A DNA stretch of 64,000 nt from positions 112,367-176,366 of the forward strand of contig JACPGB010000047.1 of assembly GCA_016182655.1 (NCBI GenBank), given 5' to 3'. The DNA comes from Deltaproteobacteria bacterium. GTDB lineage: Bacteria > Desulfobacterota > GWC2-55-46. Position 1 is the stretch's first letter. Each line of letters begins with the position of its first letter. This document shows, one piece after another, positions 23,368 through 29,402 of this stretch. The position numbers were made by a program, and so were the translations under genes. The notes under the pieces were generated by a model. The model made no database searches, was not told the origin of the DNA, and saw nothing but the letters and a program-made list of their open reading frames with translations.

Positions 23368-23952
23368 TCAGAACTCCTCTTCGTCGGACTCGGACCTCTC
23401 CATGATGCCGAGACCCGACTCTTCCTCGTACCTGCCACCCTTGATCTTGAGCTCCCGCTCGTTCTTTGACTGGCATTCGACACATACGCGGGTAAACGGC
23501 AGGGCGCGGAGCCTGTCTTCGGCTATGGGCTCTCCGCACTCCTCGCAGGCACCATAGGAAGCGTCCTTGATGCGCTCAAGGGCGTCTTCTATCTCGGAGA
23601 GCTTGTCGCGGTCGCGGTCGCCGAGCATGAGCGTAAGCTCCCTCTCCCTTTCAATCGAGGCGATGTCGTATATATCCCCTATCTCATGCTTGAGGACGTT
23701 CGATTCGCTCTTTACCTTCTGGGTGACCTCCTGGAGTATCTTGGACTTGGCATCCAGGAGCTTCTGGGTTATTTCTTTCTTGAACGGGACCTTTGACTTC
23801 GGCTTCTCTGCTGTCTTTGCCTTGGGTGCTGTTTTGCTCATGACCTTTTCTGAAGAGGGTTTCTTTACAGATACCTTCTCGGACTTTGGGGTTGTCTCCC
23901 TTTTTGCGGGGGAAGTTGCGGTTTTCTTTGTCTTATTAGTTGTCTTCGGCAT
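23368..23952 (-). CDS. DksA/TraR-type zinc-finger protein with long basic N-terminus
   Basis: The C-terminal half (about 110-180) is a DksA/TraR zinc finger with CEECGEPI and VCVECQ. The coiled-coil stretch before it includes RDRDKLSEIEDALERIKDASYG, as in proteins that insert into the RNA polymerase secondary channel. The N-terminal 65 residues are Lys/Thr/Ser/Ala-rich, an extension absent from classical 150-residue DksA. Such a tail could contact DNA or RNA. The frame opens at TTG 23961, but ATG 23952 (MPKTTNKTKK) is the likelier start. Whether it responds to ppGpp cannot be told from sequence. Confidence 0.85.
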   Translation of the reverse strand: MPKTTNKTKKTATSPAKRETTPKSEKVSVKKPSSEKVMSKTAPKAKTAEKPKSKVPFKKEITQKLLDAKSKILQEVTQKVKSESNVLKHEIGDIYDIASIERERELTLMLGDRDRDKLSEIEDALERIKDASYGACEECGEPIAEDRLRALPFTRVCVECQSKNERELKIKGGRYEEESGLGIMERSESDEEEF

Positions 23953-24091
23953 AAGAAGCAAGTATACAGTTTTTTAAACTGATGTCAATATTTTTGTCAT
24001 TATGCCATTAAAACAGGCACTTAATCGATTAACGGGCCCGCTCATTTAAAATCCATAGTAAAATCAGGCCCTTTAGCTCCAAATAGGCCTG

Positions 24092-24119
24092 TTGACAGGG
24101 TCTCCCCCGTTAATATAGA
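24092..24119 (+). promoter_or_regulatory. sigma70-type promoter for mnmG-rsmG
   Basis: TTGACA at 24092-24097 and TATAGA at 24114-24119 are separated by 16 bases. They end about 24 bases before the mnmG start region. This is one of the best consensus matches in the window. Confidence 0.65.
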
Positions 24120-24142
24120 ATATCGGTTTCGTTCTTAACCCT

Positions 24143-26023
24143 TTGGAGGGCGTTATCAGATACGATTGCATCGTGATAGGCGGCGGGCACGCCGGATGCG
24201 AGGCGGCCCTGGCCTCGGCACGGATGGGGCTATCCGCCCTCCTCGTCACCATGAACCTCGACACCATCGGCCAGATGTCCTGCAACCCGGCTATCGGCGG
24301 TATCGCAAAAGGCCACCTGGTCAAAGAGATAGACGCGCTCGGCGGAGAGATGGCAAAGGCGATAGATGACTCCGCCATACAGTTCAGGACGCTGAACGAT
24401 TCCAAGGGCCCGGCTGTGCGCGCCACGCGCGCGCAGGCAGACAGGATTGCCTACAGGCAGAGGATGAAGTCCGTTGTCGAGAAGACGGAAGGGCTCCACC
24501 TTAGACAAGGGGTTGTGGAATCCCTCATAGTGGAGGCAGGCCGCACGACTGGCCTTAAGCTCAATGACGGAGAGGTCATCACCGCGAGGGCCGTCATCGT
24601 CACGACAGGCACATTTTTAAAGGGGCTCATCCACATCGGCCTGCTTAACTACCCCGGCGGCAGGGCCGGGGATTCAGCAAGTACGGCCCTCTCGGATTCC
24701 TTGAGGTCGCTCGGCCTCTCGATGGGGCGTCTCAAGACCGGCACATGCCCGAGGCTCGACGGAAGGACTGTCGACTACTCTAAAGTAGAGGAACAGGCCC
24801 TCCAGCCGATCGAAGAGCTCAAGCCTTTTTCATTCACCTCGCCGCCGATTTCCCGTAGACAGGTACCCTGCCATATAACCTATACGAACGACGAGACCCA
24901 CAGGGTGATCCGCGAAAACCTCGAAAGGTCTCCGCTCTATAGCGGCGTCATAGAAGGCATCGGGCCGAGGTATTGCCCGTCGATAGAGGACAAGGTAATA
25001 AAGTTCCCCCAGAGACCCCGACACCAGGTCTTTCTCGAACCTGAGGGCTTTGACACCTTCGAGGTCTACCCGAACGGGCTTTCGACCTCGCTTCCCATAG
25101 ATGTCCAGTACAAATTCCTTAAAACTATCAATGGGTTAGAGAATATCGAGATACTGCGCCCCGGTTACGCCATAGAGTACGACTTCGTAGACCCGCAAGA
25201 GCTCAAGCTCACGCTCGAAACGAAGAAGATCGAAGGCCTTTACCTCGCCGGCCAGATAAACGGCACCTCGGGCTATGAAGAAGCGGCGGCGCAGGGTTTG
25301 ATGGCCGGGATGAACGCGGCGCTTAAACTAAAGTCCAGGCCACCCCTCGTCCTCGACAGGAGTGAGGCCTACATAGGGGTCATGATAGACGACCTCGTCA
25401 CAAAGGGCACCAGAGAGCCCTACCGTATGTTCACCTCCCGCGCCGAGTACCGCCTGATATTGAGGGAAGACAACGCCGAGGCAAGGCTCCGCGAAAAGGG
25501 GTTTGAGGCCGGGCTCGTAAAAGAAGATATTTTCAACACATTCCTCCAAAGGAAAGCGGCCCTCGAGTCCGTTCTGCGCCTCCTTGAGACCGAACGCATA
25601 AACCCGACCCAGGAGGTGAACTCCGCCCTCATCAATCTCGGCTCGACGGAATTAAAGAAGTCCACCACCCTGAAAGAACTTCTCCGTAGGCCAGGGATGG
25701 ACCTTAAGACCGTCCTCTCCCTCAAAAATCTACCCAATACCGCCTCACCTTCCGTTGCCGAGGCGATTGAGATAGAAGTAAAATACGAAGGCTACATCAA
25801 GAGACAGAACGAGGAGACCGGGAGGTTCAAGCGCATAGAAGGCTTGCGGATACCTCAGTCCATCATTTTCGACGAGGTCTCGGGGCTCTCCACGGAGATA
25901 AGGGAAAAATTAAAGAAGACCAGACCCGAATCCATAGGACAGGCATCGAGGATATCAGGCGTGACCCCGGCCGCCATCTCCATGCTCATGGTCCACCTTA
26001 AGAAAATAGGCACTCGCGGTTGA
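24143..26023 (+). CDS. mnmG: tRNA uridine-5-carboxymethylaminomethyl modification enzyme MnmG
   Basis: MnmG (GidA) works with MnmE to modify the wobble uridine of several tRNAs. The FAD-binding [19 protein letters not shown], then [22 protein letters not shown] and the late [20 protein letters not shown] are diagnostic; the 626-residue length is right. The start is uncertain. TTG 24143 opens the frame but has no ribosome site, while GGAGGG at 24145-24150 lies 4-5 bases before an ATC at 24155. The partner mnmE is at the other end of the window. Confidence 0.96.
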
Positions 26024-26024
26024 A

Positions 26025-26040
26025 TGTTCCACGTGGAACA
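26025..26040. promoter_or_regulatory. parS centromere site 1
   Basis: The perfect 16-bp palindrome TGTTCCACGTGGAACA lies directly after the mnmG stop codon. It is a one-step variant of the known bacterial parS consensus (TGTTtCACGTGaAACA) bound by ParB/Spo0J, whose gene is 1.6 kb downstream. Confidence 0.9.
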
Positions 26041-26061
26041 TTCATGCTGGACCCAAAGGAT

Positions 26062-26077
26062 TGTTCCACGTGGAACA
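26062..26077. promoter_or_regulatory. parS centromere site 2, overlapping rsmG start
   Basis: This is identical to site 1, 21 bases further on. It contains the GTG at 26070 that is the best start codon for rsmG, so ParB binding and rsmG translation initiation share sequence. Confidence 0.9.
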
Positions 26078-26744
26078 TAATCTAAAAATAAGCGAAGCTG
26101 AGTTAAAAACCCTTTTGAGGCGCGGAGCCGAGGCGCTTGGTGTGGTATTGCCTGAAGAGGCCCAGCTAAAGTTTATCGAATACCTCAAAGAACTTAAGGC
26201 CTGGAACAAGAAGGTCAACCTTACGGCAATCGATGAGGAGCGGGAGATCGTCATAAGGCACTTTCTCGACTCTCTTACGCCCTATGCCTTTCTTGAGGGG
26301 GCAGGGAGGCTCCTGGATATAGGCGCAGGCGGGGGTTTTCCGGGCATACCCTTGAAAATTGCCTCCCCGGAGATGTATGTCTGTCTTATCGATTCGGTAT
26401 CGAAGAAGGTCCACTTTATGCGTCATATTATAAGGAAGCTCGCCCTTATCGGCATCGACGCGGAATCCGTCAGGGCAGAGGACGCGGGTTTTATAGATAA
26501 AAACCGTGGCGGGTTCGACATTGTCACCTCCCGTGCCTTTACGGAGCTAAAATGTTTTGTCGAGGTGGCCCTGCCCTACCTCAGGCCCGGCGGGCGTATC
26601 GTCGCCATCAAGGGGCCTACTGTAGCCGAGGAGACCATTGCGCTCAAAGACTTCCCGGGTATAACAGGGATCGAGACCCATGAGGTCAAGATACCCTTCT
26701 CAATGAGAGAGACGACGATAGTGGTGATAAAGAAGGCAAGTTAA
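26070..26744 (+). CDS. rsmG: 16S rRNA 7-methylguanosine methyltransferase RsmG
   Basis: RsmG (GidB) methylates G527 of 16S rRNA. The core is FIEYLKELKAWNKKVNLTAI, the helix VIRHFLDSLTPY, the SAM loop LLDIGAGGGFPGIPLKI and VTSRAFTELK. The frame opens at TTG 26061, inside a parS palindrome. I chose GTG 26070 because AAAGGA lies about 9 bases upstream, giving a protein of 224 residues. It sits between mnmG and parA, the usual origin-linked order. Confidence 0.93.
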   Translation: MEHNLKISEAELKTLLRRGAEALGVVLPEEAQLKFIEYLKELKAWNKKVNLTAIDEEREIVIRHFLDSLTPYAFLEGAGRLLDIGAGGGFPGIPLKIASPEMYVCLIDSVSKKVHFMRHIIRKLALIGIDAESVRAEDAGFIDKNRGGFDIVTSRAFTELKCFVEVALPYLRPGGRIVAIKGPTVAEETIALKDFPGITGIETHEVKIPFSMRETTIVVIKKAS

Positions 26745-26789
26745 TCCCCTTCCCCACCTTTTGCAAGGGGAGAGCATCGGCCGAACGAA

Positions 26790-26805
26790 TGTTCCACGTG
26801 GAACA
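26790..26805. promoter_or_regulatory. parS centromere site 3
   Basis: A third identical TGTTCCACGTGGAACA lies between rsmG and parA, just after a short CCCC/GGGG palindromic repeat (26745-26775). Three sites within 781 bp would form a strong ParB nucleation centre. Confidence 0.9.
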
Positions 26806-26882
26806 TTCTCAACAAACGGTACTTTTCTCTTGCAACGCCCCGAGAACTGTTCTAAACTTTTTCCGAACCTCAAAGGATGGCT

Positions 26883-27647
26883 ATGGGCCGTATAATATCG
26901 ATTGCGAACCAAAAGGGCGGCGTTGGCAAGACCACGACCGCCGTGAACCTTGCGGCCTCGCTCGCTGTCGCTGAAAAAAAGGTGCTTCTGATAGACTTCG
27001 ACCCCCAGGGCAACGCCACAAGCGGCTTAGGGGAATCGAAGAACGGCTCAAACGGCATATATAACGCCATGATAGGTGAGGCAGACCTCCGCACGATACT
27101 CAAGAACACGGAGCTACGCTTCCTTAAACTCATCCCGTCTTCCATAGACCTCATAGGAGCAGAGGTCGAGCTCGTCGACGACCCGCAGAGGGAGTACAGG
27201 CTGAAGGCCTGTCTTTCGTCTATCAGTGAGCACTTCGATTACATCATCATAGACTGCCCGCCGTCTTTGAGCCTCCTTACGGTAAACGCCCTTGTGGCGT
27301 CCAACTCAGTCCTGATACCCCTCCAGTGCGAGTATTACGCCCTCGAAGGCATAAGCCAGATAATGAGGACGATAGAGCTCATAAAGGCAAAGCTCAATCC
27401 GGCACTCGCTATAGAAGGCATACTCCTTACCATGTTCGATTCCCGCAATAACCTCGCCCACCAGGTCGAGGACGACATCAGGGAGCATTTTAAGGAAAAG
27501 GCCTTCAAGACCGTGATACCGAGGAACGTACGCCTGTCAGAGTCCCCGTCATTCGGAAAACCGGTGATACTCTACGACGTCCACTCAAGGGGCGCTGTCA
27601 GCTACATGGAGCTTGCCAAGGAGATAATCCTTGGCGAGCGCTCATAA
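26883..27647 (+). CDS. parA: Chromosome-partitioning ATPase ParA/Soj
   Basis: This is a deviant Walker ATPase that moves ParB-parS complexes over the nucleoid. IANQKGGVGKTTTAVNLAASLA carries the Walker A lysines, LLIDFDPQGNATSGL is the A' motif, and YIIIDCPPSLSLLTVNAL is Walker B. The length of about 254 residues lacks the N-terminal HTH of plasmid ParA, as expected for chromosomal Soj. ATG 26883 is preferred over ATG 26877 because AAGG then lies at 6 bases. Confidence 0.95.
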   Translation: MGRIISIANQKGGVGKTTTAVNLAASLAVAEKKVLLIDFDPQGNATSGLGESKNGSNGIYNAMIGEADLRTILKNTELRFLKLIPSSIDLIGAEVELVDDPQREYRLKACLSSISEHFDYIIIDCPPSLSLLTVNALVASNSVLIPLQCEYYALEGISQIMRTIELIKAKLNPALAIEGILLTMFDSRNNLAHQVEDDIREHFKEKAFKTVIPRNVRLSESPSFGKPVILYDVHSRGAVSYMELAKEIILGERS

Positions 27648-27686: not shown

Positions 27687-28547
27687 ATGCTCAACAAAAA
27701 GAAGGTCCTTGGAAGGGGTTTAGGCGCGCTCATCGGCGAGGCACAGCCTCCGAGGGAGCCAAAAGAAGGCAAGGAAAAGTTCTTCCTCTGCCCGATAGTA
27801 GACATAAGCCCCAACAAGACCCAGCCGAGGAAGACTTTCGACGAGGTGAAATTAAAGGAACTATGCGATTCCATTAAAGAAAAGGGGATAATAGAACCCC
27901 TTGTCGTAAGGAGAACCCCAGACGGCTACGAGCTCATCGCAGGAGAGAGGCGCTGGAGGGCCTCGCGCATGGCCGGGCTCTCAGAGGTCCCGGTAGTCGT
28001 TTTGAACGCGAACGACACTGAGGCGCTCGAGCTCGCGATTATCGAGAACATCCAGCGGGAGGACTTGAACGCCATAGAGGAGGCCGATTCGTACAAGTCC
28101 CTCATGGCCTTCGGGCTTACCCAGGACGAGGTAGCCGTAAAGGTCGGAAAAGAGCGGGCGACCGTCGCTAACTACTTAAGACTCTTGAAGCTCCCGATAG
28201 AGGTTCGTGACGAGATAGTCAAAGGCAATATCTCGATGGGTCACGCAAGGGCGCTTCTATCGATTGAGGGCCACGCCGCCCAGGTCGAGGCCTGCCGCGC
28301 TATAATCACAAAAGGTCTCTCTGTAAGAGAGGCCGAAGCCATCGCGAACCGCGGCGCCGCAAAGCCTATGAAGAAAAAAGGCGCCGCTGGACAGGGGACA
28401 GAGGTCGAGGACGAGCTACGCGGGATATTCGGCACAAAGGTAGCGCTTAAGGAACGGAGCGGCAAGGGCAGGATCGAGATAAACTACTACTCGGCCGATG
28501 AGCGCGAAAGGGTCATAGACCTGCTACGCACCGTAAGCGGCAGTTAA
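27687..28547 (+). CDS. parB: Chromosome-partitioning protein ParB/Spo0J
   Basis: This parS-binding CTP-dependent clamp has 286 residues. The N-terminal KKVLGRGLGALIGE matches the ParA-stimulating peptide. The CTPase motif region includes KPxP-type PNKTQPRKTF, ELIAGERRWRASRMAGL and ENIQREDLNAIEEA. A central HTH (GLTQDEVAVKVGKERATVANYLRLL) reads parS, and the C-terminal dimerisation part follows. It lies 39 bases after parA and next to three parS sites. Confidence 0.96.
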   Translation: MLNKKKVLGRGLGALIGEAQPPREPKEGKEKFFLCPIVDISPNKTQPRKTFDEVKLKELCDSIKEKGIIEPLVVRRTPDGYELIAGERRWRASRMAGLSEVPVVVLNANDTEALELAIIENIQREDLNAIEEADSYKSLMAFGLTQDEVAVKVGKERATVANYLRLLKLPIEVRDEIVKGNISMGHARALLSIEGHAAQVEACRAIITKGLSVREAEAIANRGAAKPMKKKGAAGQGTEVEDELRGIFGTKVALKERSGKGRIEINYYSADERERVIDLLRTVSGS

Positions 28548-28568: not shown

Positions 28569-28982
28569 ATGTTCGGAAAAGACGGCAAGAGAAAAGACGG
28601 CGAAGTCGTAGGCTACATCGGACGCGGCGTATTGATAGAAGGGAGGCTCTCCTTCGCTTCGACCGTCCGCGTCGACGGGACCGTCCGTGGAGATATAGAG
28701 ACGACCGGCACGCTCATCATAGGAGATAGTGGTTGCGTCGAAGGGACGATAAAGGTCGGCTCTACGATAATCACAGGAGAAGTGCGCGGGTCTGTCGAGG
28801 CCTCCGCAAGGGTCGAGCTCAAGTCCCCCTGCAAACTCTACGGAGATATAAAGACGCCTTCCCTCTTGATAGGCGAAGGCGCGATATTCGAAGGCAACTG
28901 CACCATGACCGGTGCAGGCGGGAGAGAGACCTTCAGATACGGGCTTAAAATCGACGAGCCGGGGGAGGGGTTGTTGCAGTAA
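28569..28982 (+). CDS. Bactofilin cytoskeletal protein
   Basis: This small beta-helical polymer-forming protein has 137 residues. The short charged N-terminus precedes GYIGRGVLIEGRLSFASTVRVDG, and then the repetitive VRGDIETTGTLIIGD, VEGTIKVGSTIITGEVRGSVEA pattern of the DUF583/bactofilin fold. It starts 21 bases after parB, the same linkage as in Myxococcus, where BacNOP bactofilins scaffold ParAB. A role in chromosome-segregation scaffolding is inferred from position. Confidence 0.9.
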   Translation: MFGKDGKRKDGEVVGYIGRGVLIEGRLSFASTVRVDGTVRGDIETTGTLIIGDSGCVEGTIKVGSTIITGEVRGSVEASARVELKSPCKLYGDIKTPSLLIGEGAIFEGNCTMTGAGGRETFRYGLKIDEPGEGLLQ

Positions 28983-29040
28983 AAAAGTTTTTCTACTTTA
29001 CCAAACCATCAAGGCCCGTTCTGAAAGAGCCTTCCCTATA

Positions 29041-29221
29041 GTAATGAAGAACCCCGCAGCAAGCTGCGGGGTATCCTTCTTATACTTCCCCTCCCTCGAT
29101 GGGAGGGGAGTGAGGGGAGGGTGAAATCGTTGTCACCCCCACCCTAACCCTCCCCCATCAAGGGGGAGGGGATTAAAAACGCGGCAAGCCGCGGGGTATT
29201 AGACCCTAAGAGAGTAATAAA
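29041..29221 (+). repeat. 180-bp hairpin-ended element, copy A
   Basis: It begins with hairpin CCCCGCAGCAAGCTGCGGGG, continues through CTCCCTCGATGGGAGGGG and a GGGTGA...TCACCC palindrome, and ends with GCGGCAAGCCGCGGGGTATT and CCCTAAGAGAG. Nearly the same order recurs at 51644-51821 and 58403-58655. All three begin within 60 bases after a plus-strand stop codon, here that of bactofilin. Confidence 0.8.
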
Positions 29222-29232
29222 AGTCTCTTGCC

Positions 29233-29402
29233 TGTCATTGCGAGGAGCGTAGCGACGCGGCAATCTCACTTCGATGCAGTCATGAATGGTTTCAGGATAA
29301 GCCAGTACCTGAGATCGCTTCGAGACATAAAGAGGTCAGGTAGATTTATTTAAAAAAGATTTTGTAATCCCCCTCAGTCCCCCTTTAGAAAAGGGGGAAG
29401 TT
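29233..29402. repeat. TGTCATTGCGAGG-type repeat and a CCCCC/GGGGG palindrome
   Basis: TGTCATTGCGAGGAGCGTAG with GGCAATCTC (29233-29267) and a degenerate inverted half near 29311-29326 match the repeat at 21956. A CCCCCTTTAGAAAAGGGGGA palindrome follows at 29381-29400. No gene is seen in 28983-29523. Confidence 0.65.

Follow-up and report, generated by a model that had tools for sequence, protein, structure and literature searches.

A likely rsmG start codon inside a parS site of a chromosomal ParABS locus, and similar overlaps in other genes and lineages

Three identical parS sites lie within 0.8 kb of the window (the whole 64-kb stretch of DNA analysed here), and the second of them holds what is most likely the start codon of rsmG, the gene for the 16S rRNA guanine-527 N7-methyltransferase. 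It is highly probable that this is an ordinary parS cluster in which initiation of rsmG was captured by the GTG of the second palindrome, as similar captures elsewhere suggest, and not a case of regulation by ParB. The presence of a start codon within parS is regarded here as genuine and as a modest variation on a known element. The order on the plus strand is mnmG, parS1, parS2/rsmG, parS3, parA, parB and a bactofilin gene, with the following features:

24092 to 24121, plus strand: promoter-like site upstream of mnmG, with 11/12 consensus matches only; best plus-strand candidate for the gene run
24143 to 26023, plus strand: mnmG (gidA), matching TIGR00136 with 878 bits; start taken from the automatic ORF list, with no Shine-Dalgarno match found
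26025 to 26040, no strand: parS1, one base past the mnmG stop TGA (26021-26023); palindrome extended by 4 bp on each side to 26021-26044 (24 bp)
26055 to 26060, plus strand: Shine-Dalgarno match AAAGGA, 9 nt before GTG 26070 and 0 nt before TTG 26061
26062 to 26077, no strand: parS2, holding the likely rsmG start codon
26070 to 26744, plus strand: rsmG (TIGR00138, PF02527), with the central GTG of parS2 as probable start and TTG 26061 as alternative
26790 to 26805, no strand: parS3, 45 nt past the rsmG stop and upstream of parA; palindrome reaching 26787-26808
26883 to 27647, plus strand: parA (PF13614), started at the second ATG (MGRIISIANQKGGVGKTT) with AAAGGA 5 nt upstream; the ORF list gives 26877
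27687 to 28547, plus strand: parB, with ParB_N (GERRWRA, ENIQRED), HTH_ParB and ParB_C (PF02195, PF17762, PF23552)
28569 to 28982, plus strand: bactofilin gene (PF04519), after parB

The three sites are exact copies of TGTTCCACGTGGAACA, a perfect 16-bp palindrome, and no further match with up to three mismatches was found in the window, where 100 shuffles lead one to expect 0.07; the first-pass annotation, which had reported three identical sites and none elsewhere in the window, is borne out at this looser threshold as well. In the assembly from which the window comes (G000; 2,909,985 bases in 60 contigs, 97.6% complete), no match with at most two mismatches exists beyond these three, and the control, the same pattern read backwards, gave one match. 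The parS consensus TGTTNCACGTGNAACA has three exact copies in the window against 0 expected, and exact parS copies are carried by 48 of 59 relatives.

RsmG scores 147.1 bits against TIGR00138, above the curated cut-off of 99.5, and ParA has a deviant Walker A motif (KGGVGKTT). The best solved relative of ParB by sequence is the Thermus-type Spo0J chain 1vz0, and in an alignment with 6t1f, whose chain numbering runs 10 below that of the paper, its R157 and G185 align with R173 and G201 of the Caulobacter protein, a pair described in the available part of PMC7383237 as kept in ParB and altered in Noc. The residue at Caulobacter position 184 is Lys, which the same part of that paper (PMC7383237) names as a permissive residue, and the Noc model TIGR04285 scored below its cut-off on the window's ParB. 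On the same contig of the assembly, dnaA (G000:C4:177800-179119) lies about 39 kb from the parS sites (138391-139171). Judging from sequence, an ordinary ParABS system near the origin, nearness being judged by dnaA, has its chromosomal parS cluster in these three sites. As in other members of the family, ParB would load at the three sites as a CTP clamp, and ParA and SMC would act on ParB. Elsewhere in the window, a repeat-like stretch after the bactofilin gene (29040-29330) has hairpins on both strands and is possibly a dispersed repeat, and the minus strand encodes at 23368-23961 a DksA-like zinc-finger protein that is extended at its N-terminus by a long, charged stretch and falls below the cut-offs of the DksA models.

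The open frame of rsmG begins at 26010, and its N-terminal start candidates are TTG 26061-26063, made up of one base outside parS2 and the first two bases of the site, GTG 26070-26072 at the centre of parS2, and TTG 26115-26117. The start most likely lies inside parS2, and it is placed at the central GTG rather than at the edge TTG because the Shine-Dalgarno match abuts the palindrome and fits the GTG. Such a match adjoins parS2 on its 5' side in each of the four genomes that have the overlap (AAAGGAT in G000, AAAGAGGAT in G001, CCAGAGG in G003 and AAAGAGGAT in G004), the AAAGGA of the window being weaker than the AGAGG of its relatives. Other starts are scarce: in G003 and G004 the frame has none before the conserved core, the next being TTG at +15 and GTG at +9, respectively, relative to codon 25 of the protein as aligned, and in the window and G001 a TTG and an ATG, respectively, are also present 15 and 12 codons past the GTG, without an evident Shine-Dalgarno sequence. 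From this geometry in all four genomes and the few other starts, the earlier proposal that parS2 contains the GTG best suited as the rsmG start, with AAAGGA upstream, is probably correct. A start at this GTG would place codon 2 (GAA) entirely, and two bases of codon 3 (CAT), within the palindrome, which agrees with the first-pass annotation in deriving residues 2 and 3 of RsmG from the palindrome.

It is unlikely that rsmG starts instead at the edge TTG 26061, which would give M-F-H-V-E-H and make the AAAGGA match fortuitous. The edge codon is usable as a start in all four genomes (TTG, TTG, GTG and TTG, never CTG), and in the mnmG gene of G048 and the radical-SAM genes of G137 and G080, described below, the position of the Shine-Dalgarno sequence favours an ATG at this same edge. 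However, the codons here are TTG or GTG and not ATG, the better Shine-Dalgarno sequence adjoins parS in all four genomes, and the duplex energies, calculated with an assumed anti-Shine-Dalgarno sequence that may not be this genome's own, are -5.6 for the central GTG vs -3.0 for the edge codon in the window, -5.8 vs -1.0 in both G001 and G004, and -9.6 vs none in G003. The spacing to the GTG, 8-10 nt from the GG core, is on the long side and counts against the GTG start. A similar scan of the window's 38 long ORFs showed no Shine-Dalgarno sequence for 9 and spacings scattered from 3 to 12 for the others, so that this geometry is not proof of a start.

All five examined genomes of the genus have rsmG, and in four of them (G000, G001, G003 and G004) parS2 occupies the same place and phase and the palindrome supplies the best rsmG start, so that the overlap, whose conservation in relatives had been suggested as a check, is present in four of five genomes of the genus. 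The 16 bases of parS2 are identical across these four genomes, whereas the RsmG proteins of the other three are 82, 83 and 88% identical to that of the window; this supports the earlier claim that selection on parS constrains the N-terminus of RsmG (M-E-H with the GTG as start). In G002, a sister species, translation of the frame gives M-F-H-V-E-Q-G-I-stop, and the rsmG ATG lies 10 nt after parS. On a tree of 40 RsmG sequences, the start within parS corresponds to one change (clade support 100/99); since the four genomes share one origin, their agreement counts as one event. In-frame starts in the parS sites of G002, G015 and G024, which came from a first tblastn pass, were rejected, a stop separating parS from rsmG in each.

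Of the order's 48 genomes, 40 encode an RsmG above the cut-off, with starts taken as the first ATG or else the first candidate, except for the central GTG in the four genomes of the genus and a motif in G024. A parS site with at most two mismatches occurs within 350 nt past the rsmG stop in 37 of the 40, a count in which the downstream sites of G024 (gene end misassigned) are left uncounted and a one-mismatch site at the rsmG end of G017 is dropped; the third exception, G008, has none in the stretch examined. Among these downstream sites of the order, 11 of 59 begin 0-3 nt past the rsmG stop. At the other end of the gene, where the survey also grouped the window's parS1, a parS site lies over the rsmG start or no more than 40 nt from it in 15 of 26 genomes of the window's family but in none of the 14 genomes from the rest of the order. 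Relatives often carry parS just upstream of an ATG. Among 80 named RsmG loci from several phyla, 20 had any parS-like site in the stretch examined and two had one near the rsmG start, both seemingly members of the window's family already counted as G008 and G012. Given these proportions, parS near the rsmG start appears to be a trait of the family, and start capture would be an event of the genus.

Starts inside parS do not appear to be unique to rsmG, as six further gene/lineage cases were found: mnmG twice, a Crp/Fnr regulator, a B12-radical-SAM gene, a conserved 157-codon gene and a methyltransferase of a Chloroflexi genome. A scan of 395 phylum genomes for GAGG 0-4 nt before parS gave 25 places in 22 genomes, four of which open real genes in parS, namely rsmG of G003, mnmG of G115 and the Crp/Fnr-family regulator of G121 and G277 (cNMP_binding and HTH_Crp_2, with NCBIfam equivalogs below cut-off). 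GAGG 5-14 nt before parS was found at 36 places, and the 30 examined yielded mnmG of G048, whose product opens M-F-H-V-E-H-N-T-Y-D-I-I-V-I-G. Eight places matched among 49 genomes reached through named loci (from 50 hand-chosen of the 80 RsmG loci). One of these eight, in the Chloroflexi genome UBA7937, opens a 295-codon methyltransferase frame, the first 40 codons of which have starts only in parS. A search for parS upstream of the mnmG motif found it in 0 of 390 genomes, with a pattern that is blind to the GAGHAG form and missed two known cases.

A sample not picked by Shine-Dalgarno sequence was drawn from 118 phylum genomes, at least 79 of them with exact sites, a few of its sites coming from earlier loci of the same genomes. 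Among the sites listed, 7 of 69 distinct parS sites support a gene start in parS, which is a raw count and not an enrichment. Frames of at least 100 codons opening in parS numbered 21, of which seven were accepted (L169, L208, L233, L278, L280, L281 and L282) and 14 dropped. The seven supported sites hold two mnmG genes, a B12-binding radical-SAM gene from two families and the 157-codon gene from three genomes. The radical-SAM products (L233 in G137 and L278 in G080) are 50% identical and both read M-F-H-V-K-H inside parS, and since two families are involved the overlap may be old; the truncated L278 frame matches radical SAM below its cut-off. The 157-codon gene opens with GTG in parS in three genomes of one genus (L280, L281 and L282, in G106, G069 and G141, respectively), and the two copies scanned against Pfam gave no match. 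Possible in-frame starts also lie upstream in L233 and L282.

These cases fall into two registers, one with an edge ATG (M-F-H-V-[EK]-[HQ]) and a Shine-Dalgarno sequence 5-8 nt upstream, represented by G048, G137 and G080, and one with the central GTG and a Shine-Dalgarno sequence touching parS, represented by the four rsmG genes, the crp/fnr gene, mnmG of G115 and G106; UBA7937 and G069 are compatible with either register, and the Shine-Dalgarno match of G141 is only weak. While mnmG starts in parS in G115 (L169), the same-family genome G150 (L246) has parS at that place and a later ATG, a possible intermediate. The dropped frames include a parA frame (L203/L252) whose ParA domain begins at residue 65 with later starts available, three with later ATGs (the plus strand of L244 and L246, both mnmG by eye, and L251), L276, whose domain starts near residue 100, and nine lacking support (L234, the minus strand of L244, L245, L247, L255, L258, L260, L261 and L264). 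Pfam gave no match for L245 and L260, nor did NCBIfam for the L234 frame (as L164).

Intergenic parS sites often centre longer perfect palindromes of up to 36 bp (26021-26044 in the window; L057, L056 and L066; L235, L262 and L283). Behind mnmG, the parS1 palindrome measures 36 bp in G003 (L057), 32 bp in G001 (L056) and 30 bp in G004 (L066), and G001 and G004 differ by one matched change in both arms. In statistics that throughout ignore kinship among sequences, the mean extension beyond 16 bp in the order was 3.71 vs 1.07 with re-paired flanks for 14 mnmG-rsmG sites and 1.66 vs 0.65 for 59 sites behind rsmG (0 of 5000 shuffles each; 1 of 5000 each with flank positions 3-10 only). For 16 sites by the rsmG start, a group that includes the window's parS1, the effect was weak (1.12 vs 0.66, 191 of 5000; positions 3-10, 2846 of 5000). 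In the phylum sample, extension was seen at sites outside long frames (1.43 vs 0.67, 0 of 5000), although not significantly at positions 3-10 alone (788 of 5000), and was absent inside long frames (0.60 vs 0.58). Either templated quasipalindrome mutation or hairpin selection could explain the long palindromes observed here. A role for them as intrinsic terminators was rejected, as parS1 is absent from the window scan and the 16-base flanks have no clear T-run after the arms; L262 has a T-rich stretch after its arm, and there a terminator is possible.

The first-pass annotation had raised an effect of ParB loading on rsmG translation or transcription; a direct one on translation would not be expected of a protein that acts on DNA. 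It is also distinctly improbable that the overlap is regulatory, with ParB at parS2 serving as a roadblock or gate on an mnmG-rsmG-parAB transcript and coupling synthesis of RsmG and ParAB to segregation. Such a role would suit three sites that all lie within one co-directional gene run, and there are precedents in the available parts of two papers: in P. aeruginosa, ParB represses promoters beside the intergenic parS3 and parS4 (PMC5521831), and in M. bovis BCG a parS site overlaps the -10 element of a promoter upstream of gidB (PMC2346475). However, a promoter scan of the plus strand from 25784 to 27645 gave no promoter-like site, leaving parS1-3 without one nearby, and the genes beside the intragenic parS1 and parS2 of P. 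aeruginosa are described in the same part of PMC5521831 as unaffected at native ParB level. The overlapped genes also vary by lineage (rsmG, mnmG, Crp/Fnr-like, radical SAM and methyltransferase), which argues against one regulatory logic.

Control through RNA pairing is less improbable but still rather unlikely: a parS1/parS2 duplex of 16-17 bp would bury the rsmG start until opened by ribosomes ending mnmG (translational coupling), or single hairpins would hold the GUG at the loop. The predicted fold of 26000-26110 (-36.6 kcal/mol, z -4.9) contains this duplex with the Shine-Dalgarno sequence in a loop, parS2 alone folds at -7.1 kcal/mol, the GUG lying partly within an ACGU loop and partly next to it, the mnmG stop lies one base before parS1, and the self-complementary arms of parS1 are longer in G001, G003 and G004. 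However, such pairing is expected wherever a perfect palindrome is present twice, the z-score being a by-product, and the duplex was therefore rejected as a sign of selection; moreover, the minimum-energy fold consists of separate hairpins in G004, whereas G001 and G003 give the duplex. It is very doubtful that parS has been repeatedly recruited as a dual-use element, which loads ParB as DNA and as an RNA hairpin presents the start (a loop GUG or an edge AUG), its copies pairing and setting rsmG/mnmG output; if this were true, a second regulatory code, read at the RNA level, would lie in the DNA of chromosome segregation.

The most likely reason for the overlap is that genes are closely packed round parS, and not that ParB regulates them. 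parS offers one GTG and a TG edge that would become a start codon after any A, G or T, and rsmG initiation would have been captured because the intergenic space is tight and the site contains both. In the ancestor of four of the five species of the genus, rsmG would have lost the ATG about 10 nt downstream of parS2, which serves as start in its relatives, together with the intervening stop. With the Shine-Dalgarno sequence now directly 5' of parS2, the GTG at the centre of the palindrome would serve as the rsmG start, and RsmG would thereby gain a short N-terminal extension (M-E-H...) partly written by the centromere. The same kind of capture would have occurred in other lineages, with other genes and in two registers.

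parS is usually treated as passive DNA. Where starts and parS recurrently overlap, gene callers may misplace starts beside the site, and parS mutants can alter the expression of rsmG or mnmG or the N-terminus of the product, a confounder in segregation genetics. Selection on ParB sites would also leave unrelated proteins with a recognisable signature at their N-termini (M-E-H or M-F-H-V-[EK]-[HQ]), and the overlap loci offer a simple, testable set for interference between ParB loading and translation.

No report of a start codon inside parS was found in the open full-text literature, as far as its texts were available, which is weak evidence of absence as subscription papers lie mostly outside it. 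In the available part of PMC9040568, repABC replicons resemble the present case in that the centromere site lies where a gene (repB) has its 5' end, but their parS has another consensus, and the term 'start codon' is absent from the main text. The intragenic parS sites of P. aeruginosa likewise overlap coding sequence and constrain codons, although those described in the accessible parts of PMC4368675 and PMC5521831 cover internal codons and not the initiation region. Inside ParB-like frames (named by eye) at L218 and L219, parS constrains codons as in the window, but internally. M. bovis BCG shares a parS upstream of gidB (rsmG) and the order gidB-parA-parB; there, unlike in the window, the site overlaps a promoter -10 element, a second copy lies within parA, and the gidB start is not placed in parS in the portion of PMC2346475 available. 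Overall, the locus is most like the clustered chromosomal ParABS systems near oriC of Bacillus (Spo0J/Soj), Caulobacter and Thermus, with which it shares the consensus 16-bp palindrome, parAB beside mnmG-rsmG, an ori-proximal cluster, and a ParB with the parS-specific Arg/Gly pair and CTP motifs. It differs from them in having only three sites, all within 0.8 kb, one of which holds the likely start of rsmG.
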